A program made the translations under genes and the position numbers. From assembly GCF_000722635.1 (NCBI RefSeq), contig NZ_JOKH01000003.1, positions 807,413 through 871,412 on the forward strand: a stretch of DNA of 64,000 nt, in the 5' to 3' direction. Within the stretch, counting starts at the first letter, position 1; the number at the start of each line of letters is the position of its first letter. Under the pieces are notes generated by a model, which saw only the letters and a program-made list of their open reading frames with translations, was not told the origin of the DNA and ran no database searches. Below, piece after piece: positions 2,729-56,823 of the stretch. Source of the DNA: Endozoicomonas numazuensis (GTDB lineage Bacteria > Pseudomonadota > Gammaproteobacteria > Pseudomonadales > Endozoicomonadaceae).

Positions 2729-2744
2729 CTGTACAAAATAACAG
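2729..2744 (+). promoter_or_regulatory. LexA (SOS) box upstream of intI
   Basis: CTGTACAAAATAACAG matches the LexA consensus CTGT-N8-ACAG exactly, with consensus TA and TT on its outer sides. It ends 14 bases before the integrase ATG. LexA repression of integron integrase genes, and their induction by the SOS response, is established for class 1 and Vibrio integrons. Confidence 0.85.
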
Positions 2745-2758
2745 TTTCTGGATTTGTC

Positions 2759-39384: not shown

Positions 39385-42300
39385 GTGGACAGAACTGGCC
39401 GGGATAAGCCCTCTCCCCTATCAGGGAATATTTCCCCTACTCACTCGTCAATGGGCCCTGAACAAAAAAGTGAAACCACGGGTCAGCACGATCAACGTGA
39501 TATCACCCACACCAGTGGCGATAATCTGGTAGCCAAAGCCTCTGCCGTGGCTGGAACAGATGAACAGCTATCCAAGCGGGCTGTCAGAAAAAAGAAACAC
39601 ACCCGGGATGAAATGGCCAAAATGGGTCATGAAGTGGATAAATCACGCGAAGCCATTAAAGCGTTTATGAAGCAAAATGGCATTGATAAAGGACTGCCAC
39701 AAATTCAATGCACCCGTGATCACGGTTATGTCGGAGCCTCCCAGCTTCTATTTGTCCAGATGGAACAGCTGAAACAGTTGCTGGATGAACACTTTGCCAA
39801 AGCAAACAAGATGTATCAGGTGCTCACGTCTGATTACAGTGTTTATAAAAAGCTTGAAACCACTGCAAGAAGAGCCGCCAGATCACAGCAGGTCAGCGAA
39901 GATGATCAAGCCTTCCTCAGGGATGCGGTGAGCCTCGGAAACTCAGACAAGCGCCATAAGGATTATTGGGGAGAGAGGAAACTGATTCACCTCTATGCCA
40001 GCTTTTGTCGCATACGTTTCAGTGAAGCCCTTAAAGTGATGAGTATCCTGGATTCCATTCAACTGAGCGAAACTTTCGGTCACAGGATAGAGACCTTTCT
40101 ACCCCAAACGATCGAGTGTATGAAAATGTACCAGGAAGTGGTTCAGTATCAGCTGGGGCTTGAACATTATTCAGAACTGGAAGAAAGCCTCAAAACCCAT
40201 GATAAGGTCGCCTTTGGGGTGGCTATGCTGGCAGATCTGGCTGTGGCTCATTATATGCTCACCCATAATCAGGAAGCACTGCGTGCAATGCTGTCTGCAC
40301 ACTCTTGCTATTTCAGTCAATGGTTGGCTGACTTTGACCCTGAACAACCGCAAGTATTGGAGCTGGAAAGCTGGAGAGTCAAGCAGCTGATCACTGCAGC
40401 CATTCTAGTGGACAACCCCAAACAGGCACAACGCCTGCTGCAGTTCTACCGAAAGCAGATGGAAGCAGACAACCCGCTCTTTGCCCCAAAAGATATATTT
40501 TCACTCTGCCATTCTCTGCTGGCCTCTCTGACCTATCTTTATGATCGCCCTGAGCCATTAGCCCACTTTAAGGCCAGAGTAGAAGGAGCAGAAACGTTGG
40601 TCTCTGAGTTAGAAGTCCTGATCAGATCCATCAATAAAAACAAAATGCTACCGGAAGATAGCCGGGCTTCCCTAATGTTCTTTTATGAGCAGATCAATCA
40701 GCACTGCCAAGCGGTAGTAAGAGACCTTCGCAATCAGGAAGCAGGGGTGGCACAAATGGCTTCTGACCTCATCACAGAAGAAGAAGAGGATCAGAAACGG
40801 ATCAACGGCAAATTAGAAACCAGAGAGAAGAAGCGTCGGGAAAGAGAAGAAGCAAAACTGGAAGCTGAATGGAAGAAAAAGCAGGCTAAAATGGCCGTAA
40901 CCATTGCCTCAGAAAAAAAGCCGGGAACCCCTCCGCCAAAGCCCTATGATCTGGCGGGCACTCTTAGCGAAGCCTCAAAAGCCTTTGGTCGAAAAGAGGC
41001 CGTTGGTGTTCTTAATGGCATTTTCAAGAAAGTCATTCAGCATCCGCAAGTCAGTGGTTTTGATAAGGCACAAGCCCATTATGGTTATGCCGACATGGTC
41101 ACCGCCAGACTTCGACGACAGCTGGAATCAGTTCACAAGATGATTGAACCTGTTTATGCCTATAGAGAAGCCTTGGAAAGTCAGGATCTCCCTGAACTTG
41201 ATAAAGATATCAAATTCAGGGAAGCCCTGAAGCTCTTTAAACTGAATATGCAAAATATCAGTATCAATACCCTGGTCATGAGTAAAGCAGTGAAAGATGC
41301 ACAGGAGATCTTCTTTGGCCTTTCCGAGGATCAGCCAGAATTTATTGATGCTCTGGTGGACCTGCACAATGAGATGGAATACTTGATTGCACAAGGAAAA
41401 ATGGTCATCCAGTGTTGCAAGGATATTCCGAATATCTATGCACTGCGCGGTCAAATGATTCATCGTCATAAACTCTCAGGAAGTGGAGGCTCTCAACAAC
41501 GCAGTCAGCTAGTCGTTCGAGTCAAGGACCTGGAAGAACTAGGAAAAAAGCTCGACACTTCTATGGAAATGCTGGAAAACTCTCTGGATCGTAAACAGGT
41601 GGCACAATTCCGACAGGTACCCCCTGTTGCAAGAACAAAAGTCTCAGAGCCTGACGAAAGAATGCAGACTCTGAGTCCTATTCTTCCAGAACTCAGGCCT
41701 CAATCCTCCCTCTCGCAACCGGGCAATGCACATTCTAGCTCTCGCTCAAGTTCAGATTTTTTAAGAGCCGAAACTGGAGCTGCTACGACTCAAGAAGTGA
41801 GCATACCTTACCCCCCCGGAGCCATCGTATTTGCGTTGCCAGATGCCATGAGACTCGAACTTCAAGAAAAAGTTGGAAACCTGCCCAAGCCAGACCCCGA
41901 AAGTCCCCGACCTTCCAGGTTTGAAATTCACCCGGAACATGGCGCAACACCACACCCCCTGACTACCCTGGCATTCACTATTGGCAGAACACTGGTTGTG
42001 CAGGCAGGTGGTGATCGATGGGTCGTTTCTCCTGGATACCCACCTCAACGGGATTCCGATGTTGCCATTCCCAAAAATGCGCTTAAGCTCGAGTTCTGTT
42101 TTTCCTCTATGACAGAGATGTCCAGCCACAGTACTGATATAACACATGGCTCATTACCCGATCTGATTACCTCCTCAAGGGAAACATCTCCAGTCCATAC
42201 CGTTACGCCTACAGATGGATCAACGGAAGTGGGTCTGGAGAAACTGGAAACAGTGGAAATCGAAGAGCCTCTAGAAGTCGAACTGCCTCTGAGACTGTTC

Positions 42301-43080
42301 ATTCCGCACAACATGAATACAGCTCTGGGAGTTTCGATCATAGAACGCAATCTGATGGAACTCATCGATCCGGAAACCGTTCAGGAGAGAAAGCCTCCAG
42401 CAGCAAGTACTGTAAAAGAAGACTCCCAACAGGAATGGAAAACGGCCAGCCGCAAATCTAAAAAAGGTAAAAAAGGGAAGCCACAGGGACGTAAAGGAAA
42501 AGGGTCAGTGACACCTGAACCCCAAGCTGCCCCAGTCAGAGAAGAGAACGTTCCTGCTGTTGAAACAGTAAAAGAGCCGAATCCAGCTGCACTGGGTCTG
42601 AAGCTCCAGACAAGGCTTCGTGACTATCTTGAAGTACTCCATGACACAGGGAAAACTCCAGCGGGTAAGTCTGTGCCCGAGCAACTGGGTTTAAACGCTC
42701 TTCTGACAAGAGTCAGACAGGAGACTTTTCTGAAAAACCCTGATTATTTACACCATGACCTGACTATTCTGGCTGATGCTCTGAAGATTCCGATTCGGGC
42801 AAACCTCTCAATGGGACACAGTATCTACTGCAGGCCAGATCTGATCAAACCCGAGAGTCTGAACCTCTGGACAGAGCCGGGCGAGCCCCACCTGAATCTT
42901 ATGCATCCTTCTTACGCCAAGGAAAACCAATGGTTTGCGTCTCTGACTCATTACTTCCATTGTTGCGACGACGAAGATACAGAGCTGTTTCCGGAGAAGC
43001 CTGTCAAAGAAGCCAGAAAATCCAAAGACCCTAAAGCCACAACAGCAAAGTCAAAAAAGGGACCAGGAGCTAGTCATTAG
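39385..43080 (+). CDS. large coiled-coil and basic protein, candidate T3SS substrate
   Basis: A 1231-residue protein starting at GTG 39385 with AGGT upstream. No signal peptide or membrane helix is seen. The N-terminal 40 residues are polar and disordered, rich in Ser, Thr, Gly and Gln, as in type III signals. Residues about 100-460 form helical repeats, about 464-505 a highly charged coiled coil (EKKRREREEAKLEAEWKKK), and about 1021-1040 a Lys-rich stretch (SRKSKKGKKGKPQGRKGKG) that resembles a nuclear localisation signal. The C-terminal ~110 residues could be a globular OTU-like domain, but catalytic residues are not evident. It precedes a SycD-like chaperone gene by 195 bases. Confidence 0.75.
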   Translation: MDRTGRDKPSPLSGNISPTHSSMGPEQKSETTGQHDQRDITHTSGDNLVAKASAVAGTDEQLSKRAVRKKKHTRDEMAKMGHEVDKSREAIKAFMKQNGIDKGLPQIQCTRDHGYVGASQLLFVQMEQLKQLLDEHFAKANKMYQVLTSDYSVYKKLETTARRAARSQQVSEDDQAFLRDAVSLGNSDKRHKDYWGERKLIHLYASFCRIRFSEALKVMSILDSIQLSETFGHRIETFLPQTIECMKMYQEVVQYQLGLEHYSELEESLKTHDKVAFGVAMLADLAVAHYMLTHNQEALRAMLSAHSCYFSQWLADFDPEQPQVLELESWRVKQLITAAILVDNPKQAQRLLQFYRKQMEADNPLFAPKDIFSLCHSLLASLTYLYDRPEPLAHFKARVEGAETLVSELEVLIRSINKNKMLPEDSRASLMFFYEQINQHCQAVVRDLRNQEAGVAQMASDLITEEEEDQKRINGKLETREKKRREREEAKLEAEWKKKQAKMAVTIASEKKPGTPPPKPYDLAGTLSEASKAFGRKEAVGVLNGIFKKVIQHPQVSGFDKAQAHYGYADMVTARLRRQLESVHKMIEPVYAYREALESQDLPELDKDIKFREALKLFKLNMQNISINTLVMSKAVKDAQEIFFGLSEDQPEFIDALVDLHNEMEYLIAQGKMVIQCCKDIPNIYALRGQMIHRHKLSGSGGSQQRSQLVVRVKDLEELGKKLDTSMEMLENSLDRKQVAQFRQVPPVARTKVSEPDERMQTLSPILPELRPQSSLSQPGNAHSSSRSSSDFLRAETGAATTQEVSIPYPPGAIVFALPDAMRLELQEKVGNLPKPDPESPRPSRFEIHPEHGATPHPLTTLAFTIGRTLVVQAGGDRWVVSPGYPPQRDSDVAIPKNALKLEFCFSSMTEMSSHSTDITHGSLPDLITSSRETSPVHTVTPTDGSTEVGLEKLETVEIEEPLEVELPLRLFIPHNMNTALGVSIIERNLMELIDPETVQERKPPAASTVKEDSQQEWKTASRKSKKGKKGKPQGRKGKGSVTPEPQAAPVREENVPAVETVKEPNPAALGLKLQTRLRDYLEVLHDTGKTPAGKSVPEQLGLNALLTRVRQETFLKNPDYLHHDLTILADALKIPIRANLSMGHSIYCRPDLIKPESLNLWTEPGEPHLNLMHPSYAKENQWFASLTHYFHCCDDEDTELFPEKPVKEARKSKDPKATTAKSKKGPGASH

Positions 43081-43275
43081 GCACCTCTCAGGGTTGAGTT
43101 GTTTCTGAAGGAAGGTTCTGCATCGGGGCTTCAGTGTCAAAAATCTGGAGATTATTCGGTATTTCAACCCTTCAGCCTCTCCCTACGACTTTCGTCCCAA
43201 CAGGCAGGAGCCCCCAAAAAACGAGTGCTATACCTTTAGAAACAGAATTCTGAAAGATCAGCAAGGAAGCCGTCG

Positions 43276-43770
43276 ATGTCAAACCAGCCCTTCCAGGCTC
43301 CTGACAGTCAGGAGCTGGCCACCATGACCGAATACCTGCTCACGGGTGGAACCCTGGCAGAAGCCAACCAGATGAATGAGAAAGCCCTCGAAGCTATCTA
43401 TGCCCATGGATACAGTCAGTATCAGAATGGTCACTTTGAGGAAGCTGCAAGAATCTTTCAATACCTTTGTTTCTATGATCACTGGAACGCCCGAAACTTT
43501 ATTTGCCTGGGTTCCTGTCAGATGATGCTGAGAGCTTACGGACAGGCTATTAAAACTTTCGAGTACGCAGCAAGAATGGATATCAAGAATCCACTGGCGA
43601 AAGTGTATATGGGTGACTGCTACCTTGCTCTAAAGGAAAGAGGCATTGCAAAAGTGATCTATAAAAGTGCATTAAAAGATGCCAGCAAACATCAGTTCTC
43701 ACATCTGGAGTTGACGAGAGTCGAGCGTTTGCTCCAGACCTTTGAAGACGAGCAGGGAGGGCAGTCCTGA
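43276..43770 (+). CDS. SycD/LcrH-type T3SS chaperone
   Basis: A 164-residue acidic TPR protein. Three TPR units (about 40-140) include IYAHGYSQYQNGHFEEAARI, NFICLGSCQMMLRAYGQAI and AKVYMGDCYLALKERGIAKV. Size and the N-terminal helix LATMTEYLLTGGTLAEAN match class II chaperones of translocators (SycD, LcrH, IpgC), which bind hydrophobic T3SS translocators. The stop codon overlaps the start of the next gene (ATGA-like, 43768-43772), so the two proteins are translationally coupled and likely a chaperone-substrate pair. No T3SS apparatus gene is in the window. Confidence 0.8.
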   Translation: MSNQPFQAPDSQELATMTEYLLTGGTLAEANQMNEKALEAIYAHGYSQYQNGHFEEAARIFQYLCFYDHWNARNFICLGSCQMMLRAYGQAIKTFEYAARMDIKNPLAKVYMGDCYLALKERGIAKVIYKSALKDASKHQFSHLELTRVERLLQTFEDEQGGQS

Positions 43771-45230
43771 TGGTCGATTCAGTTAATCGTAGTGAAGCCG
43801 TCGTAGTCCCTACACAAACAGAAGAACTCAGGGGACTTGAACAGGCTGACCGTGTTTCAAGAGGTTATGATACAAGCAATTCGGTATCAGCCCGTACCGG
43901 GGGAGGCTTGGTTCAACTGCCTCCCGGTGCATCTGATGCTCCCACCATACCAGAACCCGACTCAGAGATTACCGGTGAGGTAGGCGATTTACAGAAACAG
44001 GTAGCCCAGCAGACAGCCGCCAACCTCAGAGGGCAAATTGGAGGGAATTTTGGTGAGGGCCCTGCCTCGATCACTAACACCTACCCAGAGCTGGTCACGC
44101 CCGCTGTAGGTAATACGGTATTGGAAATTGATGACAAACTTTCCAAACTCTCAGAAGCTTCGCCAGAAACGCTCAGCAATATCAATGGCGCCTTAGGTAG
44201 ACTTCATGCCGAAAATAGACAAGGCACTCTGACAACAGACAAGCTTGATCAGATCCTTGCTGAGATCAATGCCAACCTGGAAGACAATTCCGTTAAATAC
44301 TCTGAAAACAAAATAGAGATTGCTTCTCAAGATGCTCAACAACGCCATGCCAGCAACATAGAACATATTCGAGAACATATTGATGACGCCAACAGCGCGA
44401 GCAAGGCTAACTCCGATACTATTTTCCTGAAAAGCCTGGCATTTATATTTCCTCCCGTTGCGCTCTGGGAATGGGCTCTTGAAATCGACCGCGATGTTAA
44501 TCCTGGCAAAGACAACTCGAACATCAGTATCTTTTCCAAAAGTGAAATTGACTACATGGAGAAGCAAGAGAGAGACTCTGAAGCCCAGCGCAACCGCCAG
44601 GCCAATAGCCATGTTCTTTTTCGCCCCCCCGTCCAATCATCAGGTAACTCAGAGCAAACCGATAACCACCAGCCAGACAGTGATGACAACCAGCAACCCT
44701 CCGAGGCTATAGATGAAGCAGGCTCTTCCTCTTCTTCTGTAGGTGACGCTACAGAAGGTATTCAGATAGCCAGCGAGGGTATGGATCACTTTGAAAGACG
44801 AAAACTTCTGCTTCAGGCCCTTCAAGAGTCTGCCGAATCAGAAGAAGCCAAAAATAAACTGCAGGAAGCTATTAATGCACTGGAATCCGGTGATCCAGCT
44901 CTGGCGGAAGAAATACTGGGTGGCTTTACCGACTCTTTAGGACTGGAAAACAGTCTGGGTGACAGTGTCAGTACATCAACCGATGATACAGCCCCCCCAC
45001 CGCTCCCTGAAGAGGTTCCTGAAATCGGGGAAAACAACCAGGAGCTGACTCCTCCCTCTGAGGAAGTGACACCTGATGCTGTTCAGAATGAGCAGCCAGA
45101 GAGCCCACCTGCCGCCCCCGATCTCACCCAGTTTGTCAGTAATATCTCCAACGTACCTGAAGAAGTACTTTCTTCCCAACAGGATGCAGCCAGTGAGCAG
45201 GGGCTTATCCGACGCCATAATTCCGTTTAA
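43770..45230 (+). CDS. putative T3SS translocator or effector coupled to the chaperone
   Basis: A 486-residue protein with no signal peptide. The N-terminal ~70 residues are polar and unstructured. A helical region (about 70-215) with coiled-coil character is followed by one hydrophobic stretch (SLAFIFPPVALWEWALEI, about 226-245); then come a Gln/Asp/Ser-rich linker, a helical segment (about 330-390) and a Pro/Glu-rich tail. A single hydrophobic region inside helical flanks fits IpaC/YopD-like translocators. The 1-base overlap with the chaperone gene is the main evidence. No direct homologue recognised. Confidence 0.7.
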   Translation: MVDSVNRSEAVVVPTQTEELRGLEQADRVSRGYDTSNSVSARTGGGLVQLPPGASDAPTIPEPDSEITGEVGDLQKQVAQQTAANLRGQIGGNFGEGPASITNTYPELVTPAVGNTVLEIDDKLSKLSEASPETLSNINGALGRLHAENRQGTLTTDKLDQILAEINANLEDNSVKYSENKIEIASQDAQQRHASNIEHIREHIDDANSASKANSDTIFLKSLAFIFPPVALWEWALEIDRDVNPGKDNSNISIFSKSEIDYMEKQERDSEAQRNRQANSHVLFRPPVQSSGNSEQTDNHQPDSDDNQQPSEAIDEAGSSSSSVGDATEGIQIASEGMDHFERRKLLLQALQESAESEEAKNKLQEAINALESGDPALAEEILGGFTDSLGLENSLGDSVSTSTDDTAPPPLPEEVPEIGENNQELTPPSEEVTPDAVQNEQPESPPAAPDLTQFVSNISNVPEEVLSSQQDAASEQGLIRRHNSV

Positions 45231-45235
45231 ATTTC

Positions 45236-45279
45236 CGCTGTCTCTGTCATGGATTATTGATATCCATACAGAGACAGCG
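45236..45279 (+). terminator. long hairpin after the T3SS substrate gene
   Basis: CGCTGTCTCTGT and ACAGAGACAGCG form a 12-bp perfect stem, and ATGGAT/ATCCAT extend it inward. It begins five bases after the stop codon. There is no T-run, so termination may rely on structure or the hairpin may protect the mRNA end. Confidence 0.55.
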
Positions 45280-45403
45280 ATGGTTCATAACCATGTCATT
45301 TCGGTTTCATCTCATCCCCTGACTGCAATTCGAGCTATCTATACGGCGCATTTTTTGAAAAAATAGCGCTCCCTCAGACAAAACAGATAAAACCAGAACA
45401 TTC

Positions 45404-47641
45404 ATGAGTCACTCATCTCTGCAGCAGCCAGTGCCTGCCAAGGAATTATTTTCCTACCCAAAGTATTGGGCTGAATGCTATGGCACAGCACCTTATCTTC
45501 CCATGACCCGTGCAGAGATGGATGAACTCGGCTGGGACTCCTGCGACATCATCATTGTCACAGGAGATGCCTACGTTGATCACCCCAGCTTTGGTATGGC
45601 CGTTATTGGCCGTTTTCTGGAGTCCCAGGGTTTCAGAGTTGGCATTATTGCCCAGCCAGACTGGAATAATACCGAAGACTTCATGCGCCTGGGCAAGCCC
45701 AATCTGTTCTATGGCGTTACGGGCGGCAACATGGATTCCATGATCAACCGCTACACCGCTGATCTGAAAGTCCGTAATGACGACGCCTATACCCCTGATG
45801 CAGAACCCGGCAAACGCCCGGATCGCTCCGTTATCGTTTATAGCCAGCGTTGCAAAGAAGCTTACAACGACGTTCCAGTCGTTATTGGCGGTATTGAAGC
45901 GAGTCTCCGCAGAATTGCCCAGTACGATTATTGGAGCAATGAAGTTCGTCGCTCTGTTTTGATTGATTCCACGGCAGATATTCTTCTCTACGGAAACGCT
46001 GAGAGAGCTATGGCCGATGTAGCTAACAAACTGGCTGCAGGCATTGATATCAAAGCGATGGATAATATTCGCGGAACCGTGGTTGTTAAGCCTGTAACAC
46101 CGGAAGGCTGGACCGAAATTGATTCCACTCGTATCGACTGGCCCAGAGATATGGGCTCTCTGGAAGAAGCCTATGGCACCAGTCCTTATGAGTATATTCA
46201 GGAAGAAGAATGTGCCTCCAGTAAAGAACAGGAGCCTTCAGCGTTTAATAAAGAACCCGATGTTCAGCCTATCCGTATTGTCCCCCTTCCTTTACATCGC
46301 AAGGCAGACTTTGACGCCAGCAAAAGCTGTATTCGGCTGCCGTCGTTTGAAAAGGTTCGCAAGGATCCTGCTCTCTATGCTCACGCTTCCCGAGTGCTTC
46401 ATCAGGAGTCCAACCCTCACAACGCCAGGGTACTGATACAGAAGCATGGCAATCGTGAAATCTGGGTAAACCCACCCCCTATCCCTCTGGAAACACCAGA
46501 GATGGATGGTGTCTTTGCCCTGCCATACCAGCGCAGACCACACCCTTCCTACGGTGAGGCTAAAATTCCGGCTTATGACATGATCAAGACGTCCGTCAAC
46601 ATCATGCGAGGCTGTTTTGGTGGTTGTACTTTTTGTTCCATTACAGAACACGAAGGCCGGGTCATTCAGAGCCGTTCTCAAGAATCTGTTCTGCAGGAGC
46701 TGGAAGATATTCGCGACAAGGTACCGGGTTTTACAGGTCAGATTTCTGACCTGGGTGGACCCACCGCCAATATGTATCACCTGAACTGCAAGAGTGCAGA
46801 GATTCAGGCCAGCTGCCGTCGCCTTTCCTGTGTTTTCCCCGGTATTTGTAAAAATCTGGAAACATCACACAAGCAAACGACGGAGCTGTACCGAAAAGCC
46901 AGAGCGATTCCCGGTATCAAAAAGATCGCCATCGCTTCCGGCCTCCGTTATGACCTTGCGGTGGAAGATCCAGAGTACGTTCGTGAGCTGGTCACACACC
47001 ACGTAGGTGGTTATCTGAAAATTGCGCCTGAACATACCGAGAAAGGCACTCTTGACCTGATGATGAAGCCCGGCATGGGCACCTACGACGCCTTTAAGAA
47101 AATGTTCGACAAGTTTTCGAAGGAAGCCGGTAAAAAGCAGTACCTTATTCCTTATTTCATCGCCGCTCACCCGGGCTGTGAAGACGAAGATATGATGAAC
47201 CTTTCGCTGTGGCTGAAGCGCCACAAGTTCCGTGTTGATCAGGTACAAACTTTCTACCCGTCCCCGATGTCACTGGCAACCGCCATGTACTACTCCGGTC
47301 GGAACCCACTGAAAAAGCTCAACTACAAGAGCGACAAACTTTATATTCCTAAAGAAATGGAACAACGTCGTCTACACAAAGCATTTCTGCGCTACCACGA
47401 CTCCAGACACTGGGATGTATTGCGTAATGCCCTGAGAAAGATGAACCGTTCCGAATTGATCGGTGATGGCCCTAACCAGCTGGTACCTGCTGAAGAGAAA
47501 AGCAAAGACAGCCGTCGTCCACATATGTCCATAGCGAAAAAAGGGCAAAAGCCCGCTGGAAAATTCCAGAAGGCTCGTGGTGGACAGTGGGACAACCGGC
47601 AGCCCAAAAAGAAAACAGTCCAACGTACAAAACGTCGTTAA
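45404..47641 (+). CDS. ygiQ: YgiQ-family radical SAM protein
   Basis: A 745-residue cytosolic protein. An N-terminal B12-binding-like region (50-300; [20 protein letters not shown]) precedes the radical SAM core with the 4Fe-4S ligands C404, C408 and C411 in CFGGCTFC. Conserved YgiQ motifs [23 protein letters not shown] and [15 protein letters not shown] follow. The Lys-rich tail ([18 protein letters not shown]) is present. Function is unknown; the family likely acts in rRNA/tRNA or related modification. The last ~60 codons seem to come from an incoming copy, because the displaced native 3' end lies at 51654-51836. Confidence 0.92.
47465..47599 (+). repeat. ygiQ 3'-end direct repeat, copy A
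   Basis: Bases 47465-47523 (59 bp) and 47547-47599 (53 bp) are identical to 51678-51736 and 51742-51794. The copies differ between the blocks by an in-frame 18-base length difference. Copy A is the functional end of ygiQ. Together with copy B it bounds the NTPase insertion, about 4.1 kb apart. Confidence 0.92.
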
Positions 47642-47680
47642 TACAACAGAGCAGTGATTCTAGACTCTGAAAAGAAGCGT

Positions 47681-47700
47681 CCCGGAGCCTGAACTCCGGG
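47681..47700. terminator. hairpin after ygiQ
   Basis: CCCGGAG and CTCCGGG form a short GC-rich stem around CCTGAA, followed by GTTTCC. It lies between the convergent ygiQ and NTPase genes. Different from the ygiQ terminator at 51842, as expected if this end is foreign. Confidence 0.55.
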
Positions 47701-47729
47701 GTTTCCAGCATTAATCAGAGTATTTCTAC

Positions 47730-50700
47730 TCAATCAAAAAATGACCGTTTGCTGTGTGCACGAATGTAGCTTTTTTCTATCTTTAAACTACCAATAACCC
47801 CCTTCTTTTTGAGACTTTCCAACAGTAGAAAGTTTTCTTCACTCATGGGCACCACGAACTGTCTTTTTTGTTGAGACAGTTCATTAAACCCACCTACCTC
47901 CAATTTTGACAAGAGAATAGCAATTTCCGACCAACAATAGTGATGTAGCTGAAATGCTAACAATCTTACTTTTGATAATTCTAACCCTTGATCCTCAAAG
48001 AGAGCATTTAATACATCAAAATCAATCTGTAAGGCTAAGTCCTTCCCTGAAGGCTGTCCAAATAACTTTAAAATCTGACTACTTAGCCCCTTCGTCTCCT
48101 CTATAATCTCAACACCTAACCATGGGAATAGTTTTGATTTTTCCCGAATTGTCAGTTCGTTACTAACTAGCAAGCCGAGCATGATATTGCCGGGCAATTC
48201 AACCTCATCACTACTCCTATGAAATCCATCCCAACGACGAATTAGATACTGAGGAGCAAGTTTAGGGAACGCCTCATTAATAAATTCTAAGATCTGCTTT
48301 GAGTAAGGCAGTCGATCCCATGCCACTAAGATACCCATTCGATCTTGTGTAAGGTGTTCACGCCTCAAATGCCAAGAACCCAAGAAGCCCATTGATGAAA
48401 GTAAACCATCCAATACCGAGGTATTGATATCATCGCACTCTAAAATCTCACTGATAAACATATCGACACTTTCATACTCCCCAAGACTGTCGTCATCTGA
48501 AAGAGCTTTAAAATTATCTTCATCCTGTAAAAATAAAGATAGATTATCATCTAATTTCCCGGCATCAGTCTGTTCAAAATAAGTAAAAACATTTCTCCAT
48601 GATGGTACAACCTGATGGGTAGAAATGAGGCTTTCATATAAACCTTTTGATTTCACTTTTTTAAGATCAAGCAATTTAAGGTCAGTTTTCCTAATCAAAC
48701 TTAACTTATGAGCATCCTCAAGCCGATCGTCATTTAGAAGATCAATAAAATATTCCTCATCTTCTGAAACCGTTTCCTGAACAATAAGAGTATTGATAAC
48801 AAAATCCTTCAGGTTTTCATTTATATACCCAATAAAAATCTCATTATCTGACGACATCAATGCTGTATAACTAACCTGAGCTAACTCTTCTGGCTCATCA
48901 CTATAAGAAAAAGAAAGAAGAAGACTTATCATATGAACATTTATTTCATATTGTCTATCATCAATTACTTTTCTTATCATTTCTTTCGTACAATATTCCA
49001 ATCCTAAATTATTGAATTTAACTTTTTTTTCTTTAAACCAGAACCATGCTTTAGGATTTTCATTAGAAAGCTTGTAAATATCACGTATATCTTCAAATGA
49101 AGAAACAACGGAAACAATTTCACTAGATAGCAGCCTATGCTTGGACGGTTCTATAACCGACATAATATCGTAGAAGAAAGCCTGTTTATCCAGTGAATAT
49201 GAGTCATTATCAAGCATACACTTATTAATTAAATGATGATTCGCTGCCATTATAACTTCAATTAGCTTTCTTCGGTTTCCATTTTCATTATCATACTGGC
49301 GAATAAATTCTCTAAATTGATTAAAGTTATCAATCGACCTAGAAAACAACTCCATCAAATAACTATTAGCAGAATACTCCTCAAACGTAGAGCACTTGTT
49401 ATCAATCAAATATTTAACCAGTTCATTGATTAATCCGCGACTTCCAGAAAGGTGTGAAGGCGTAATATGCTTAAGAAGAGCACTTGGGTTATCAATTTTA
49501 TGAGAAAAATCAAACTTTCTTCCTTCACCAAGTCCCAATGATAGTCTCTTGTCATTTTCGCTGATGGACCCTGGGTAAAAGTATGACAAGTAATCTTTAT
49601 AATCCTCGGAAAAATAACCTTCTCTCAGGAAATAAATAATAGGCCCTAGATTTTTCTGCGCCAAGTCAAAAGAAAAATCGAAGCCAGGATTTTCATAAAG
49701 AAAAAACTCTCTAATCGAACACCGTTCTACCTTATTAATAGTTTCTCTAATCGATCTAATACGGCCTAAAGACTGACTAATATTCTCTTTCAGTAAACCT
49801 ACCTTATCGTGATAAGTCGGATTAGTACTATTTGTAAGATTACGAAGAGACATTCTTGTATTTAAAATACTATTATAATTTCGGTCAAGCAAAATAATAT
49901 GCTGATTATTACTGTATGCCTCCTCCCAAAACTCATCGGTTAAAAACACATCAATACCCACACGCCCCCTTTGACCTACAGATATTCTAGTCGAGTCAAA
50001 CTTTTTACCATCTTCAAAAATCTTATACCAATAGATAGATCTAAGCTCTTTAATATTTTCAGGGATCAATTGGCGCCTAGACTCTATATTATCTTGGTTT
50101 TTCCTTATATCCTTATTCAAAGAATCTATAGCACGCTTCTTTTCAAATGAAAAGTTCTTGAAAATTTCAAACAACACACCAGATCGTTTAACTAGTTCCG
50201 CATGTTCCTGAGGAAATAAATTCTTAATAACAACCATTGAAAAGAGTTTGTTCTTATCCAATTCAACGTCAATTGAAATCCTATTAAGATAAACATCGAA
50301 CTCATTAACAATATTAGTAATCAAACGCATATCTTCAATATAATCTGCCACTTTGTAAATTAAATCACGGCTTAAACTCTCAGTAGCTTTTTTATCATCT
50401 ATCTTTATTGTTTCCAAAAGAGCGTACAGTTTTGGACCTGAGTTAGCTGTATCAATATATGGAACAATAGGAATAATAAGATCAAAAAATTTCACTCTAT
50501 CCTTGGAGCCAAACATTGAGTCTTTAATAGCATAAATAAAATAAACAGGTTGTTTCACTAGATCAGAATTATTGACATGACTATTAATTTCACGCAATGC
50601 GTCAAAAATATGTACTTGATTAAACCGATCTAAGTCCTCAATAAAAACAACGTTATAAGAAGTTCGTTCAAAAAAGTAAATTATTTCATCGAGATGTTTA

Positions 50701-51515
50701 TTTAATACAGAGTCACTTCGAGCAATTTCAAGTTTACCTCCCTTTACAGTCCAATCCGTAACTTTGAGTTTACGAAAAAAAGTCACTCCAATTGACAATA
50801 GATAAACAACCACACCAAAAATGATTAGTTCAGCTACTATAGGAGCGAAACTTTCTATGATAAAGATTATATTTTCAGGGAGGAATGATCTAGTCGTCTG
50901 TATCAATGAGCTTTCACTCCAGCTCCAGCCATATTTTTTTTGTATTATGACTGCTACAGAAAAAGCAGCTAGTATTGTACCTAGTGTAAATCCAAAAACT
51001 TTCCAGTAACTATGATGTTGTATGCGTTGTAGACGACTGTCTGGAAGCTTCTCGCTAGAAGTCGTATATAAAAGTTGCTGAACAATACTTCCTTCTATAT
51101 CAATAATCGACTTTTTGTCTACATCAGTCTGTTCATCATCAGTATCTATTTCAATTTTGTCAAAGCGAGCTAATGACACTTTTATGTATTTAAATTGCCG
51201 ATTTCGCTCAGCAAAAGAGTGTAGAAAGGAGCTTTTTCCTGCTGCGTAGGCACCCGTTACGGCAATATTTCTGGTTTTCGGCTGTTTCTTCGTATCTAAA
51301 CCGGCAAGAAGTTCTTTCTCATATTTTGCAATACTCTCTCCTTTTAGCGATACCGGTGTGAGAGGCCTAAGCGATGAGCGACCATCGTGATTTTGCCAAT
51401 AAATAATCCATTCTTCAAAAGCTGATTTCCATACTGTAGTGATAGCACCAAAATATAAATAAAGACGTACAACAGCTTTATTATAGATTTTCGAAAAAAA
51501 CTGTCTAAAAACCAT
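47730..51515 (-). CDS. giant KAP/YobI-like membrane P-loop NTPase
   Basis: A 1261-residue protein. Walker A GAYAAGKSS is at 88-96 and Walker B VVFIEDLDRF at 289-298. Between them lie two membrane segments (about 172-192 and 215-246), the defining topology of KAP-type NTPases; the overall size and the adjacent NSDLVKQPVYFIYAIKDSMF sensor region resemble the YobI family. The remaining ~900 residues are helical and show no known domain. Clearly more AT-rich than ygiQ and the transketolase genes, with many ATA/TTA codons, so horizontally acquired. It is the only gene between the duplicated ygiQ ends. KAP/YobI-type ATPases occur in defence islands; a role in phage defence is inference. Confidence 0.8.
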   Translation of the reverse strand: MVFRQFFSKIYNKAVVRLYLYFGAITTVWKSAFEEWIIYWQNHDGRSSLRPLTPVSLKGESIAKYEKELLAGLDTKKQPKTRNIAVTGAYAAGKSSFLHSFAERNRQFKYIKVSLARFDKIEIDTDDEQTDVDKKSIIDIEGSIVQQLLYTTSSEKLPDSRLQRIQHHSYWKVFGFTLGTILAAFSVAVIIQKKYGWSWSESSLIQTTRSFLPENIIFIIESFAPIVAELIIFGVVVYLLSIGVTFFRKLKVTDWTVKGGKLEIARSDSVLNKHLDEIIYFFERTSYNVVFIEDLDRFNQVHIFDALREINSHVNNSDLVKQPVYFIYAIKDSMFGSKDRVKFFDLIIPIVPYIDTANSGPKLYALLETIKIDDKKATESLSRDLIYKVADYIEDMRLITNIVNEFDVYLNRISIDVELDKNKLFSMVVIKNLFPQEHAELVKRSGVLFEIFKNFSFEKKRAIDSLNKDIRKNQDNIESRRQLIPENIKELRSIYWYKIFEDGKKFDSTRISVGQRGRVGIDVFLTDEFWEEAYSNNQHIILLDRNYNSILNTRMSLRNLTNSTNPTYHDKVGLLKENISQSLGRIRSIRETINKVERCSIREFFLYENPGFDFSFDLAQKNLGPIIYFLREGYFSEDYKDYLSYFYPGSISENDKRLSLGLGEGRKFDFSHKIDNPSALLKHITPSHLSGSRGLINELVKYLIDNKCSTFEEYSANSYLMELFSRSIDNFNQFREFIRQYDNENGNRRKLIEVIMAANHHLINKCMLDNDSYSLDKQAFFYDIMSVIEPSKHRLLSSEIVSVVSSFEDIRDIYKLSNENPKAWFWFKEKKVKFNNLGLEYCTKEMIRKVIDDRQYEINVHMISLLLSFSYSDEPEELAQVSYTALMSSDNEIFIGYINENLKDFVINTLIVQETVSEDEEYFIDLLNDDRLEDAHKLSLIRKTDLKLLDLKKVKSKGLYESLISTHQVVPSWRNVFTYFEQTDAGKLDDNLSLFLQDEDNFKALSDDDSLGEYESVDMFISEILECDDINTSVLDGLLSSMGFLGSWHLRREHLTQDRMGILVAWDRLPYSKQILEFINEAFPKLAPQYLIRRWDGFHRSSDEVELPGNIMLGLLVSNELTIREKSKLFPWLGVEIIEETKGLSSQILKLFGQPSGKDLALQIDFDVLNALFEDQGLELSKVRLLAFQLHHYCWSEIAILLSKLEVGGFNELSQQKRQFVVPMSEENFLLLESLKKKGVIGSLKIEKSYIRAHSKRSFFD

Positions 51516-51653
51516 AATTCAATACAATCAAACCTAAATATCTATCATATTGATTATCCTACTCCGCCTTACAAATTGCGAGAAACTTATCCAGCTTTGA
51601 GTTAATCAATTAAAGATAAAATTTAAGATTTCCTGTTTTTTAACCACTACCAC

Positions 51654-51836
51654 TTGCACTACGCTGAACTGATTGACGATGGCCCTAACCAGCTGGTACC
51701 TGCTGAAGAGAAAAGCAAAGACAGCCGTCGTCCACAAAACAAAAAGCCCGCTGGAAAATTCCAGAAGGCTCGTGGTGGACAGTGGGACAACCGGGCTCCT
51801 CGTAAAAAGCCGTCAACGCGAAGTAAGCGCAGATAA
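51654..51836 (+). pseudogene. ygiQ: displaced 3' end of ygiQ (copy B)
   Basis: The frame [19 protein letters not shown] and [16 protein letters not shown], ending PRKKPSTRSKRR, is the YgiQ C-terminus without the rest of the gene. Its ATG and lead codons are not from a real start. It keeps a strong terminator at once downstream, as an original ygiQ end would. It is the native end cut off when the NTPase element inserted with a substitute ygiQ end. Not expected to be expressed as protein. Confidence 0.88.
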
Positions 51837-51841
51837 ACGAC

Positions 51842-51872
51842 AAAAAAGCCCCGGATCAGTCCGGGGCTTTTT
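51842..51872. terminator. bidirectional intrinsic terminator
   Basis: AAAAAGCCCCGGA and TCCGGGGCTTTTT form a 13-bp perfect stem with the loop TCAG and A/T runs on both sides, between the ygiQ remnant and the convergent transketolase gene. Confidence 0.92.
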
Positions 51873-51875
51873 CTA

Positions 51876-52811
51876 TCAATCCAGCATGGCTATAGCCGCT
51901 TCAGTAATAGCCTGAGCTGAAATGCCATACTGATCCTTCAGATAATCCAGACTCCCTACCTGCCCGAACTGTTCACGAACACCCAGCTTTCTGAAAGCAG
52001 TCGGAGCCACCCCTGCCTCCAGAAGCTCAGCGATCACCGCGTCACCCAAGCCACCGGTGACATTGTGATTCTCTACTGTCAGTAATTTACCGGTTCTATT
52101 GATGCACTGGATCACCAACTGGGTATCCAGAGGTTTGATAGTGTGCATATCAACAACGGTCACTGTTTTACCCATCAAGGCTTCAATCTCGGTGGCCGAT
52201 TTCAAAGCATCATGAACACTGAGACCACTGGCAACAATCGTCAGATCATCTCCCTCTCTGAGCACCTGTCCCTTGCCGATTTCAATATCATCGGGAGATT
52301 TGTAGAGATCAGGAAGATCCTTTCGAGTTGAGCGAATGTAATTAACCCCCGGAGTCTGGTAGCTGAAATGCATCGCTTTCTTCAGAACAGCGGCATCCGA
52401 TACCTCAATAACCACGGAGTTTGGAATCAGTCGCATCAACCCCACATCTTCAAACGGCATATGTGTTCCGCCGTTAGTCACTGCAGCCACTCCGGCATCA
52501 CTGCCAAAGATATTGATGTGTTGCCGTGCATAACCGCCAGAAAGGAAGAGCTGATCGTAGCATCGACGGGTAATGAAACAGCCAAAAGAATGAACAAAAG
52601 GCACCAAGCCTGTTGCGGAAAGACCTGCTGCCACACCAATCATATTGGCCTCAGCAATACCACACTGAATAAACTGTTCAGGAAATTCTGCCTGAAACTT
52701 TCCAGTGCTGACGCTGCCCATCAGATCCGCTTCCAGAACTCTCAAGTCCTGATGTTCTCTAGCCAGATCAAGCAGTGTTTCTGCATGAATATGTCTCAGT
52801 TCACTGCTCAT
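51876..52811 (-). CDS. transketolase C-terminal subunit
   Basis: A 311-residue protein covering the pyrimidine-binding and C-terminal domains of a split transketolase: FIQCGIAEANMIGVAAGLS (TPP-pyrimidine glutamate), GSDAGVAAVTNGGTHMPFED, and TVENHNVTGGLGDAV near the end. It pairs with the N-terminal subunit encoded just upstream, overlapping by four bases (ATGA), to make an ab-type enzyme. In this operon it probably rearranges a pentulose phosphate derived from the PTS substrate. Last gene of a five-gene operon; closed by the terminator at 51842. Confidence 0.9.
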   Translation of the reverse strand: MSSELRHIHAETLLDLAREHQDLRVLEADLMGSVSTGKFQAEFPEQFIQCGIAEANMIGVAAGLSATGLVPFVHSFGCFITRRCYDQLFLSGGYARQHINIFGSDAGVAAVTNGGTHMPFEDVGLMRLIPNSVVIEVSDAAVLKKAMHFSYQTPGVNYIRSTRKDLPDLYKSPDDIEIGKGQVLREGDDLTIVASGLSVHDALKSATEIEALMGKTVTVVDMHTIKPLDTQLVIQCINRTGKLLTVENHNVTGGLGDAVIAELLEAGVAPTAFRKLGVREQFGQVGSLDYLKDQYGISAQAITEAAIAMLD

Positions 52812-53644
52812 TTCAGGCTCTCCAGTCGCTGTTCAATCACATCCAGATCTTTGAGAATGGCGCTTCTCAAAGTATCATCCAAACGCAAATGATGATTAGA
52901 CGACATATTTACGATAGAAGGAAAACCCTGACCTTTTTCCGTATCCAAAATAATGGCTGTGGGCTTATCTCTGCTGGCCAACCCCTGCTCAATGGCGCCG
53001 AAAATCTGGTTGATATCCTGACCATTGACCTGAATCGCGTCAAAACCAAAAGCCTGGAATTTCTCTCGAAGATCAAACGGTTTTTGAATCTCATCCAGAT
53101 AACCATCTAACTGTCGTTTGTTGTAATCCACAAACACAACCAGATTATTCAGCTGATGATGGGCTGCAAACTGAAACGCTTCCCAGCATTGCCCTTCCTG
53201 AAGCTCTCCGTCACCCACAACCGCGAAAACGTTTGATTCTGTGCCCATAGCAATGCCCATAGCACAGGAAATCCCCTGCCCCAGCGAGCCAGTTGTCATA
53301 TCGACACCTGCTGTTTTGTTCATATCAGCATGGCTGGGTAAAGACGTACCATTGGCATTGATCGTCTTGAGCGTTTCCAACTCAATAAAACCTCTCAGGG
53401 CCAGCGTTGCATATAACGCGGGGCCTGCATGGCCCTTTGAAAGCACCAGTCGATCTCTGTCAGCCATTTTTGGATTAGACGGATCATGATGCAGATAATG
53501 ACCATACAGACAGGCCAGAGTTTCCGATATGGAGAGACTACCGCTAAAGTGACCGTATCCGAGATGCAGCAGAGCTTTAACCGTTTCTGCCTTGATGGAG
53601 AGATTGAGGTGTTCAATCTCTCTGAGGTATTCGTTTGATTTCAT
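52808..53644 (-). CDS. transketolase N-terminal subunit
   Basis: About 278 residues from ATG 53644 (GAAG-type ribosome-binding site); the longer frame starts with TTG inside the previous gene's end and is less likely. It holds the TPP-pyrophosphate domain: GHFSGSLSISETLACLY, LSKGHAGPALYATLA, GSLGQGISCAMGIA and the TPP motif GDGELQEGQ...VFVDYN. Lacks the C-terminal half, supplied by the next gene. Gap to the EIIC gene is 23 bases. Confidence 0.9.
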   Translation of the reverse strand: MKSNEYLREIEHLNLSIKAETVKALLHLGYGHFSGSLSISETLACLYGHYLHHDPSNPKMADRDRLVLSKGHAGPALYATLALRGFIELETLKTINANGTSLPSHADMNKTAGVDMTTGSLGQGISCAMGIAMGTESNVFAVVGDGELQEGQCWEAFQFAAHHQLNNLVVFVDYNKRQLDGYLDEIQKPFDLREKFQAFGFDAIQVNGQDINQIFGAIEQGLASRDKPTAIILDTEKGQGFPSIVNMSSNHHLRLDDTLRSAILKDLDVIEQRLESLK

Positions 53645-53667
53645 AAACTTCACATTACATCCCGGGG

Positions 53668-55023
53668 TCAATGAGCACTGGCAGCCTGCAGCTTTTTCTT
53701 ACGGTGAATAAAGTTCGTGGCAAAAACACCGGCGGAGACCGCAGCAATCGCCAGAATCACGGCTTCTTTACCGGCCATGGCCATGTAGCCCAGGAAGATA
53801 CCGGTTACCGCAAAGTCAGAATCGGAGAAAGTGGTGTTGGCAAAACCCAGATCGCCCAGAACAGGCAACAACCAGAGTGTCAGAAAAGTAATCACAACGC
53901 CGTTCACAAAAGAGCCCACCGCAGCTCCCCGACGACCCCCTGTTGCATTCCCGAAAACCCCTGCTGTCGCACCGGTGAAAAAGTGAGGCACTACACCCGG
54001 CAGAATCAGCGTCAGTTTCATGGCCCCCAAAAGACCCATGCTGACCAGACCACCCAGGAAACTACAAAGGAAGCCGATCAACACCGCATTTTGTGCATAT
54101 GGGAAAACAATGGGGCAGTCCAGGGCTGGCTTGGCCTCTGGTACCAGTTTCTGAGAAATCCCGTTAAAGGCAGGCACGATCTCTGCCAGAACCAGTCGGA
54201 CACCTTGAAGAATGACAAAAACACCCGCAGCAAAACCGATGGCACTCAGTACTGCATACACAACAGGGTTTTGACCTCCACTGAGGTGTTCCCTGACAAA
54301 ATCACCACCTGCAGCTGCTACCAGAATCAGGTAAATAATACCCATGGTCAGTGAGATAGAGATGGACGAATCACGAAGGAAAACCAGATTTTTAGGCAGG
54401 TTCATCTCTTCTGTACTTTTAGACCCTTTACCCACCAGCTTGCCAATCAGGCCAGAAGCCACATAACCAACCGTGGAAAAGTGCCCAAAAGCCACATCAT
54501 CAGAACCCGTAATCTTGCGCATGAAAGGCTGTGCCATAGCCGGGAACAACACCATTACCAGCCCTAAAGTAATGGAGCCGAGCAGTACCAGCGTGAAACC
54601 TTCAAAACCAGCCACACTGAGAATAATGGCAATCATGCAAGCCATGTAGAGTGTATGATGCCCTGTCAGGAAGATGTATTTCAGTCTGCTAAAACGGGCA
54701 AAAACAATATTGGCCACCATACCAAATGCCATAATCAGGGATGTGGCAGAGCCAAATTCTGCCATGGCGGTCGCATAAATGGCTTCGTTATTGGGGATAA
54801 CACCTCGAAGATTAAAACCCTGCTCCATCAGGGTACCCATAGGCGTAATAGCCGCTACCAGAATACCGGCACCCCCACCAATAACCAGGAAGCCAAGAAT
54901 GGTTTTAATCGTACCTTTTACAACATCGGGTGCAGGTTTCTTTTGAATTGAAAGGCCAATCAAGGCCACAAGACCAATTAGAATCGCGGGTGTACTGAGT
55001 ACATCCATTAATAGCTCAAGCAT
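53668..55023 (-). CDS. ulaA: PTS EIIC, ascorbate (UlaA/SgaT) family
   Basis: A 451-residue membrane permease with about 11 helices. GTIKTILGFLVIGGGAGILV, YIFLTGHHTLYMA and FFTGATAGVFGNATGGRRGA match UlaA (465 residues in E. coli), which imports and, with EIIA/EIIB, phosphorylates L-ascorbate. The gene order EIIA-EIIB-EIIC and the lack of UlaG/D/E/F ascorbate-catabolic genes leave the substrate open; the transketolase pair points to a pentose- or pentulose-like sugar. Symbol denotes family membership only. Confidence 0.88.
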   Translation of the reverse strand: MLELLMDVLSTPAILIGLVALIGLSIQKKPAPDVVKGTIKTILGFLVIGGGAGILVAAITPMGTLMEQGFNLRGVIPNNEAIYATAMAEFGSATSLIMAFGMVANIVFARFSRLKYIFLTGHHTLYMACMIAIILSVAGFEGFTLVLLGSITLGLVMVLFPAMAQPFMRKITGSDDVAFGHFSTVGYVASGLIGKLVGKGSKSTEEMNLPKNLVFLRDSSISISLTMGIIYLILVAAAGGDFVREHLSGGQNPVVYAVLSAIGFAAGVFVILQGVRLVLAEIVPAFNGISQKLVPEAKPALDCPIVFPYAQNAVLIGFLCSFLGGLVSMGLLGAMKLTLILPGVVPHFFTGATAGVFGNATGGRRGAAVGSFVNGVVITFLTLWLLPVLGDLGFANTTFSDSDFAVTGIFLGYMAMAGKEAVILAIAAVSAGVFATNFIHRKKKLQAASAH

Positions 55024-55036
55024 ACTTCACACCCTG

Positions 55037-55300
55037 TTACTGATTCATATACTCTTTCAGCTTTTCTTTCATAGCCACTTTATCCGTTATATTCGGAAGA
55101 GCTATAACATCGCCTGAAAGAATGGAACCGGCTAAATCTTTTGTACAAATAAAAACATCGGCCATATCCGGTGTAACAGAGCCCAAATCAGTATGATTAA
55201 CTTCTCCCTGAATACCCATTTCACTTAGAATCTCTTTCACTTTCATTTCGATCATGAAAGAAGAACCCAAACCTGTACTGCAGACAGCCATAATTCTCAT
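55037..55300 (-). CDS. ulaB: PTS EIIB, ascorbate/lactose-like
   Basis: About 87 residues from ATG 55300 (GAGG upstream); the longer frame from 55333 overlaps the EIIA gene and has no ribosome-binding site. The phosphocysteine is in VCSTGLGSSFMIEMKV (Cys7), as in SgaB/UlaB. It passes phosphate from EIIA to the sugar through EIIC. Located 13 bases before the EIIC gene and 11 after the EIIA stop. Confidence 0.88.
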   Translation of the reverse strand: MRIMAVCSTGLGSSFMIEMKVKEILSEMGIQGEVNHTDLGSVTPDMADVFICTKDLAGSILSGDVIALPNITDKVAMKEKLKEYMNQ

Positions 55301-55310
55301 AGTAAAAACC

Positions 55311-55754
55311 TCAGTAGTTTTTGATAATTTCAATAATGTCTTGTACTGAACTGGATGCTATTACTTTCTCGACATCGCCCTCATGACAGAAGAATTCCGA
55401 GATAGAGGTAATCAGTTCAATGTGTTGATTACTGTCTGCAGCAGACAGTAGAAGAACCAGATGGACAGGGTCGTTCTCAGAACTTTTAAAGCTCACGCCA
55501 TCCTTAACAATCAATAAAGAAAGAGCGTTCTTTATAGCCCCTTCATCCGGTCTGGCATGGGGCATGGCTATTTTTGGAGCAACCACGTAGTAAGGCCCCA
55601 GTTCTTCAGTAGATCTGAAAATAGCCTCTTTATAAAACTCAGAAATTGACCCGTCGTTAATTAACGGTTCACAGACAAGATCAATAGCATGCTGCCAGTC
55701 ATTGACTGACTCTAAAACAGCTATTCGATCTTTAACAAGTAATTGACTCAGCAT
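55311..55754 (-). CDS. ulaC: PTS EIIA, mannitol/ascorbate (UlaC-like)
   Basis: A 147-residue cytosolic phosphocarrier of the PTS-EIIA type 2 fold. The phosphorylated histidine is His66 in AMPHARPDEGA, within the signature region. Length equals UlaC (about 150). First gene of the operon; its ATG lies 69 bases from the palindrome at 55823-55841, which therefore may sit in the promoter. Confidence 0.88.
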   Translation of the reverse strand: MLSQLLVKDRIAVLESVNDWQHAIDLVCEPLINDGSISEFYKEAIFRSTEELGPYYVVAPKIAMPHARPDEGAIKNALSLLIVKDGVSFKSSENDPVHLVLLLSAADSNQHIELITSISEFFCHEGDVEKVIASSSVQDIIEIIKNY

Positions 55755-55822
55755 AAATCGTCCAAACTAATAAACCGGGCATGAGCTAAAATGCAGTGTT
55801 TTAAAAGCAAACCCTATCTTTG

Positions 55823-55841
55823 TCGATTAATAATCGACACG
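55823..55841. promoter_or_regulatory. palindromic operator of the PTS-transketolase operon
   Basis: TGTCGATTAATAATCGACA is a perfect 9-1-9 palindrome located in the 438-base divergent gap 55755-56192, 69 bases upstream of the EIIA ATG. Size and symmetry suit a LacI-, GntR- or DeoR-type repressor dimer. No regulator gene is adjacent. The rest of the gap is AT-rich with no other recognised feature. Confidence 0.65.
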
Positions 55842-56192
55842 GTAATTTGTATAAATCGGTTATCTTTTTTCAGTCTAGGATTCCCGGATTTTTATTTAGA
55901 TGATCCAGATCAAATTTTCATTCAGATATTAACCACTAGAAACACACCTGATCAAAAACCATAATTTAGACTTGACTCATATCAACAAGAAAATATCTTT
56001 TAAACAATCAGCGCACTGTTTTTTCCATGTCCCCATTTAAATTAAGAATACATAAAGTGTTCACATTTAATTCATATCAAACAGGTAAACTCATCCTTTC
56101 TTCCTGAAATACTCATAATCACTGTCTTCAAAGTCCTTTTTTCTTGCTCCACAATTTCTTACACTGCCTGCCAACAGTATGAGGAAGATGTG

Positions 56193-56498
56193 ATGACGAC
56201 ACAGATTGATCAGGAAACCCGGGACAAACTGGATGCAGCGACCTTTCGCCGGCTGCTGAAGCACCTTGATGACAATAAAGACGTGCAGAACATTGACCTG
56301 ATGATTCTGGCGAATTTCTGTCGCAACTGTCTGGGCAAGTGGTATAAAACAGCCGCAGATGATCTGGGTGTTGAGGTGTCAGACAATGAAGCCAGAGAAC
56401 GCGTCTATGGCATGCCTTATTCCCAATGGAAAGAAAACCATCAGCAACCGGCTACTCCAGAGCAGCTAGCGGCTTTTGAAGCGAAACAAAACAAGTAG
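56193..56498 (+). CDS. DUF1244 family protein
   Basis: A 101-residue protein from ATG 56193, with AGGA suitably upstream; an in-frame GTG three bases earlier is less likely. LMILANFCRNCLGKWYKTAA and YGMPYSQWKENHQ are the DUF1244 signature (conserved cysteines and aromatics). Cytosolic; function unknown. It is followed by an array of 20-bp repeats. Confidence 0.87.
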   Translation: MTTQIDQETRDKLDAATFRRLLKHLDDNKDVQNIDLMILANFCRNCLGKWYKTAADDLGVEVSDNEARERVYGMPYSQWKENHQQPATPEQLAAFEAKQNK

Positions 56499-56548
56499 TG
56501 CCCAGACACTTACTTGAATGTCTGCCAGACAGCTATATTGATGCCAAC

Positions 56549-56808: not shown

Positions 56809-56823
56809 ACAAGAGAACTGAGT

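Follow-up and report, generated by a model that had tools for sequence, protein, structure and literature searches.

A Tmn-like NTPase gene between two copies of the ygiQ 3' end in Endozoicomonas numazuensis

Results

Gene content and layout at the ygiQ locus

The window analysed here (the whole stretch of 64,000 nucleotides, to which all positions refer) lies within contig C3 of the 6.34-Mb genome of Endozoicomonas numazuensis, and contains a complete ygiQ gene (45404..47641, plus strand) encoding a radical SAM protein of 745 aa (Pfam Radical_SAM_N, 2.4e-135; DUF3362, 4.5e-37). Reading along the window, ygiQ is followed by a convergent gene of 1261 codons (47730..51515, minus strand; hereafter tmn) for a Tmn-like KAP/YobI NTPase, then by a second, cut-off ygiQ end, a stem-loop and a minus-strand operon, with the next gene beginning at position 51876. 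An earlier, sequence-only reading had described the region as a one-gene insert, free of any recombinase and richer in AT than both flanks, that is bracketed by two direct repeats of the ygiQ 3' end with identical blocks of 59 and 53 bp; the coordinates, open reading frames and spacings given below all bear this out. The only open reading frames of at least 80 aa in the insert are the large one and an 80-aa frame that overlaps the downstream ygiQ copy, and with a single large reading frame the insert holds no integrase or recombinase gene, nor any other gene for integration or transfer.

An AT-rich leader (51516..51661) precedes tmn and reaches the start of the downstream ygiQ copy; since promoter-like sites across the region number 15 against 15.1 expected, and hence do not rise above chance, the promoter search was not used. 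Between the convergent stops of ygiQ and tmn sits a GC-rich stem-loop (47681..47700), terminator-like for tmn on the minus strand and perhaps for ygiQ as well. With four terminator-like stem-loops found in the region, against 2.2 +/- 1.6 expected from shuffling, it counts as weak evidence.

Direct repeats and the empty site

The upstream ygiQ end (copy A) and the downstream one (copy B; 51662..51836, plus strand) align over 147 bp at 84% identity (E 8e-44). Direct-repeat comparison resolves a first pair of 71 nt, at 47453 and 51666 (94%; spacing 4213), which contains the 59-bp identical block (47465..47523 in copy A, 51678..51736 in copy B, plus strand), and a second pair of 53 nt, identical throughout, at 47547..47599 and 51742..51794 (plus strand; spacing 4195), such that the copies run through 59 identical bases, an indel and 53 identical bases before they diverge. 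As a test against chance, 200 gaps of the same size were placed at random in the window with 8-kb flanks, and the two that spanned the real pair were excluded; a direct repeat at E<=0.01 was found in one of the 198 kept, and its coordinates are those of the real pair itself, cut by the placement. Copy B translates in frame as a ygiQ end (APRKKPSTRSKRR, then a stop), with the upstream part of the gene missing, and is followed by a terminator-like stem-loop with a 14-pair stem (51842..51873), which is listed on the minus strand, has a plus-strand T run as read from the sequence, and aligns with a counterpart in E. arenosclerae.

In E. arenosclerae, ygiQ runs directly into the same transketolase/PTS operon, and so presents the empty site. 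The window's ygiQ is colinear with that of E. arenosclerae up to 47452 (84.9% nt), copy B matches its ygiQ end at 85.5% nt, and the 3 kb after copy B match at 84.2%. A virtual exchange in the 59-bp block yields a 739-codon ygiQ colinear with that of E. arenosclerae, with 390 of the 460 bases around the join being the same and a single 1-nt gap, whereas an exchange in the 53-bp block leaves an 18-nt excess; this excess of copy A is absent from five of the six relatives aligned over the ygiQ end, with Hp36 carrying a different insertion there.

Because joining the flanks in the 59-bp block gives back the gene form seen in E. arenosclerae, copy B and its terminator are the native ygiQ end, and the end of copy A came with the insert, which agrees with the sequence-only reading in taking the upstream copy to complete ygiQ and the downstream copy to be the native end. 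Likewise, since this join is near-gapless and the 53-bp join leaves 18 extra bases, the 59-bp block appears to be the likeliest place of exchange, marking the left junction in copy A and the right junction in copy B; the last part of the present ygiQ, 3' of an exchange within 47465-47523, is insert-derived together with the stem-loop at 47681-47700. The replacement end (47524..47641, plus strand), relative to which copy B is shorter by 18 bp, differs from it in the last codons, and the first bases of copy B, 5' of the 59-bp block, would in turn be insert-derived. Copies A and B agree at all 112 positions of the two blocks, which were picked as identical, and E. arenosclerae departs from them at 8 positions of the 59-bp block and 6 of the 53-bp block, so that the insert's ygiQ end either derives from this species or one very close to it, or was homogenised.

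The base-level empty site comes from E. arenosclerae only: ygiQ was matched in eight same-genus genomes (G007 and G010 gave no ygiQ match), and the other seven of these loci have other neighbours behind ygiQ. In none of the eight was tmn found at ygiQ, with the downstream sequence in one of them (G006) covering only 3.3 kb.

Foreign composition and distribution of the gene

In 500-base windows, the GC content of the insert is 0.30-0.41, against 0.47-0.52 at 42000-47500 and 0.45-0.54 at 51750-54750; it drops again to 0.35-0.43 at 54750-56500, outside the insert. The tmn gene itself has a GC of 0.344 and a GC3 of 0.291, as compared to 0.464-0.500 and 0.439-0.521 for five neighbouring genes. In composition, the gene and its insert are foreign.

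A protein search of 58 genomes at E<=0.001 recovered the gene's own genome and more distant matches in eight genomes of the sister genus g7 (best 39%), and none in the ten other same-genus genomes; the situation that would have spoken against an insertion, with all relatives carrying the NTPase and no empty site, was thus not seen. In a class-wide draw, 1 of 369 genomes (its own) matched at E<=1e-60, and in an order-wide draw 8 of 391, its own included, matched at E<=1e-50. No near DNA of the gene was found in E. coli genomes and no Tmn protein in the phage collection, and a distant relative is encoded on three IMG/VR contigs and was included in the tree described below. Relatives occur in 635 of 72,556 plasmid records, 463 of them from Escherichia.

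The protein

The 1261-residue product matches the Pfam YobI-ATPase family PF20693 at 1.5e-105 (354.2 bits against a cut-off of 27), confirming the KAP/YobI-type assignment of the sequence-only reading, and the PADLOC Tmn profile at 2e-76 (255.8 bits, residues 49-1040 on positions 26-1052 of 1273), the latter without PADLOC's own thresholds; the E. coli Tmn protein scores 2050.9 bits on the same profile. NCBIfam, used as a supporting rather than a defining test, gave no significant match (best E 0.071, to a PspA model). Both nucleotide-binding motifs are intact, namely a P-loop GAYAAGKS at residue 88 and a Walker B VVFIEDLDRFNQ, with EDLDRF at residue 293, and two hydrophobic segments (171-193 and 214-250) lie between them. 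A plasmid-derived E. coli Tmn of approximately 1270 aa, likewise a single gene, shares the Pfam domain (4.6e-104) and the arrangement of motifs and hydrophobic pair, and aligns with the window protein at 25% identity. No PDB sequence matched at E<=1, and a structure model of 731 residues, built from four sequences, gave a mean pLDDT of 47.8 and a pTM of 0.31, values too poor for a fold search.

The best reading is therefore that the cargo is a Tmn-family KAP NTPase with its ATP-binding and Walker B motifs intact, whose two helices inserted in the NTPase domain would anchor it in the membrane. The KAP family is reportedly the subject of Aravind 2004, and Gao 2020 is said to be the discovery paper. 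By analogy with its family, the protein most likely detects infecting phages and blocks their propagation. PMC11846954 describes E. coli Tmn as an NTPase of the KAP family that bears two unusual transmembrane domains and inhibits T2, P1, phiVi and phiX; the mechanism is described there as unexplored, and the abstract ties sensing to the phage gene nmad5, work that a meeting report also covers (PMC12908700). In Salmonella, tmn is described as often plasmid-associated (PMC11305592). Among the open-access matches listed, no paper dealt with an Endozoicomonas Tmn or treated ygiQ as a site of integration.

Relatives in the sister genus and at other Tmn-like loci

In a tree of 18 proteins, in which the letter make-up of the window protein was flagged and some branches elsewhere are long, the window gene is sister to seven sister-genus genes with 100/100 support. 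The E. elysicola member of this clade is 38-39% identical to the window protein over nearly its full length. Judging by gene names read from sequences, five of the seven (G016, G025, G029, G031 and G033) have an mrcB-like gene on one side and an ilvI-like gene on the other, the E. elysicola gene has three additional genes on the ilvI side, and that of G032 has the mrcB-like gene on one side and transposase-like genes on the other. Their GC contents (0.438-0.480) are near those of their flanks. All seven lack the EDLD motif (L135:7657-11493, L144, L145 and L178-L181), six keep the P-loop and several are shortened. Pairwise dN/dS among them is 0.13-0.41 in the 16 of 21 comparisons for which it could be computed, the value of 0.13 coming with saturated dS and the other five comparisons all involving E. 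elysicola. Going by these sequences, the sister-genus genes look to be retained but catalytically altered; a clade without EDLD and with host-like GC means that not every member of the family need be a defence NTPase.

Flanking direct repeats were sought at 14 other tmn-like loci, with base-by-base inspection of the window and of L174, and none of the 14 has a gene-end pair like that of the window. In G603 (L174), an imperfect 139-bp pair (72.7%) surrounds 13.4 kb in which the integrase set found no match. An identical pair of 26 bp flanks the L145 gene, only weak short matches were seen at L178 and L156, and the other ten have no flanking direct repeats.

Is ygiQ a recurrent target?

To the sequence-only reading, this insert looked like a compact defence or selfish unit targeting ygiQ. 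A defence-type gene is upheld by the PADLOC Tmn match, a family that it had not named; recurrent targeting of ygiQ, on the other hand, is unsupported, since no second ygiQ-end insertion of the kind was found in the loci and genomes searched, and ygiQ as a recurrent hotspot is accordingly set aside. Among 122 ygiQ locus records, a redundant set reaching from 369 to 14,897 bases downstream, such that long islands could escape, none has a comparable second ygiQ end; the only downstream matches, in L054 (22 nt) and L104 (23 nt), are weak, short and unlike the pair in the window. An orphan C-terminal ygiQ end beside a whole gene occurs in the window's own genome only, out of the 42 of 58 searched genomes with a ygiQ match, and in G034 ygiQ is broken and present only in pieces, a C-terminal one among them. 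The 16 genomes without any ygiQ match are uninformative on recurrence.

Recombinases near ygiQ were sought in the 84 records that extend 2.5 kb or more downstream, using 11 recombinase loci of the window's own genome and one recombinase-like reading frame of L175. Weak matches were found in Hp36 (L057 and L139, the same locus; approximately 6.3 kb away) and in L097 (2.4 kb away), neither of which has a duplicated ygiQ end.

Discussion

Origin of the insert

A restored gene on one side, an exiled native end on the other and a precise empty site are the kind of outcome that integrase elements inserting at gene 3' ends produce; those that enter protein genes restore the 3' end exactly, with a stem-loop behind it. 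Taking our findings together, we propose, with a probability of about 0.5, that the locus holds a Tmn-type anti-phage gene on a 4.2-kb remnant or non-autonomous island, resembling a cis-mobilizable element (CIME), that was placed by an integrase-type exchange. On this proposal, a foreign one-gene island of 4.2 kb would have integrated at the ygiQ 3' end, as a circle or behaving like one, with its own copy of the ygiQ end recombining with the chromosomal end inside the 59-bp block. Such an event would keep ygiQ whole by giving it a new tail with its stem-loop (attL-like), and would displace the native tail and its terminator to the far side (attR-like). The integrase itself may have been lost or supplied in trans, and it is this, gone or in trans, that would make the present unit CIME-like. 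A recombinase fragment (window 2684-2950) is 45 kb from the insert, and of the 13 PF00589 (Phage_integrase) matches in the genome just one falls on this contig, approximately 798 kb away. The ygiQ end was not found in phage or plasmid records, and three pattern matches in IMG/VR viral contigs were not confirmed; this lack of a carrier, and of an integrase in the insert, speaks against the proposal. So do the patchy identity of the copies, the single ygiQ-end duplication found, the base-level empty site in one relative only, the 25% identity to E. coli Tmn and the lack of a significant NCBIfam match. We further speculate, as a doubtful extension, that the unit might be a minimal, non-autonomous mobile defence element, a 4.2-kb circle made up of tmn, a substitute for the ygiQ end and a terminator stem-loop and nothing else, which still excises and integrates without a scar by means of an integrase from another element.

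Since the identity between the copies is patchy, homologous exchange fits almost as well, and we hold it to be a possible, if somewhat unlikely, alternative in which an integrase was never involved. Here, a circular or concatenated donor fragment, carrying part of another Endozoicomonas ygiQ together with tmn and delivered, for example, by transformation or transduction, would have entered by one crossover in ygiQ, after which gene conversion acted between the two ends. For an att core the shared stretch is long, comprising 112 identical bases in two blocks at which E. arenosclerae is not identical, and the lack of an integrase in the insert and of a carrier in the phage, plasmid and IMG/VR collections points the same way. 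Against this, it is integrase-like that ygiQ regains an exact 3' end followed by a stem-loop, and a shared ygiQ stretch of approximately 170 bp is probably short for RecA exchange between diverged species.

A separate question is whether the protein is a defence effector at all, or instead a host-adapted KAP membrane protein like those resident in the sister genus, which we consider unlikely. Its nearest relatives in the tree are just these residents, with their host-like GC, their missing EDLD and dN/dS values indicative of retention; set against them, the window gene is full length, keeps both P-loop and EDLDRF, is foreign in composition, sits on an island and scores 255.8 bits on the PADLOC Tmn profile, versus 166.4 for the E. 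elysicola relative.

Returning to the junctions, one-sided, homology-facilitated illegitimate recombination would have a ygiQ-A/tmn donor that pairs at one side with the host ygiQ, while its other side is joined by chance upstream of the pairing point, with duplication of host ygiQ sequence; the abrupt start of copy B within ygiQ is what such a join would leave, but the identity should then be unbroken from the join onwards, whereas there are four differences between the copies in the 12 bases 5' of the 59-bp block and an indel splits the identical stretch, making this account improbable. An assembly artefact is most improbable, for the two copies are internal to one 917-kb contig, their flanks are distinct and each syntenic with a relative, and substitutions and an indel set the copies apart.

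Comparison with known systems

PMC5704250 describes a CIME as an element that has lost its integration and transfer genes and kept attL and attR. Like such an element, the insert has attL/attR-like flanking repeats and lacks integration genes, and its target gene is restored; it differs in having a single gene, in the putative nature of its att function and in that no related integrase-bearing element was found for the ygiQ site. The Pseudomonas islands I23, I44 and I55 (PMC12595487) carry defence genes, with an integrase adjoining tmRNA: like the insert, they have a phage-defence cargo, lie between direct repeats where a conserved gene has its 3' end, and lack autonomous transfer genes, and they depart from it in their tyrosine integrase, tens of open reading frames, 14-bp repeat and choice of tmRNA rather than ygiQ as target. 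The Dehalococcoides ssrA islands offer a further comparison (PMC3146451).

With respect to the cargo, the insert is a chromosomal one-gene island, in contrast to the many Tmn relatives on plasmid records, and its protein is 25% identical to E. coli Tmn. The sister-genus KAP genes (E. elysicola and six others), though closest in the tree, differ by their host-like GC, EDLD loss and, in several, shortening.

The component kinds are already known; the package is unusually small, and is without a gene to move itself. It provides a clean case in which one defence-type gene has been inserted as a unit, with the empty site resolved to the base, the target gene restored and no mobility gene, and it extends Tmn-type proteins to marine animal symbionts. 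An intact foreign copy, alongside a sister clade without the catalytic motif, would allow a test of what the NTPase activity is for.

Other observations in the window and at related loci

The minus-strand operon behind the insert (51876-55754) comprises a split transketolase and PTS components (EIIC-GAT, IIB and EIIA), and lies between ygiQ and a DUF1244 gene. Its first genes are common to E. arenosclerae, and a DUF1244-type gene lies directly 3' of ygiQ in G002, G003, G004 and G009; from this gene order, the operon is probably an older insertion at the same intergenic place. Beyond it, an array of approximately 13 copies of a 20-bp repeat (56509-56868) occupies the space between the DUF1244 gene and the next gene (323 aa).

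Near the start of the window, an AT-rich region (725-2950; GC 0.28-0.33) contains two genes without a Pfam match above the cut-off and without a PADLOC match. These are adjoined by the recombinase fragment at 2684-2950, which shares 95.5% identity across 89 aa with an integrase-like gene at another place in the genome.

In Hp36 (L057:12271-13926), a single 551-aa gene with a protein-tyrosine-phosphatase domain stands tail-to-tail with ygiQ and is followed by a DUF1244-type gene, and the ygiQ end is not duplicated there. The stretch bounded by the imperfect 139-bp direct repeat (L174:1167-14679), which holds GGGGGCA motifs, belongs to another family of the order and contains a distant Tmn-like gene. 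Lastly, AT-rich Tmn-like genes (GC 0.30) occur in two genomes that belong to one genus (L176:7984-11727 and L177:8405-12241), near the same hydratase-like and aminotransferase-like genes, as named from their sequences, at differing positions.
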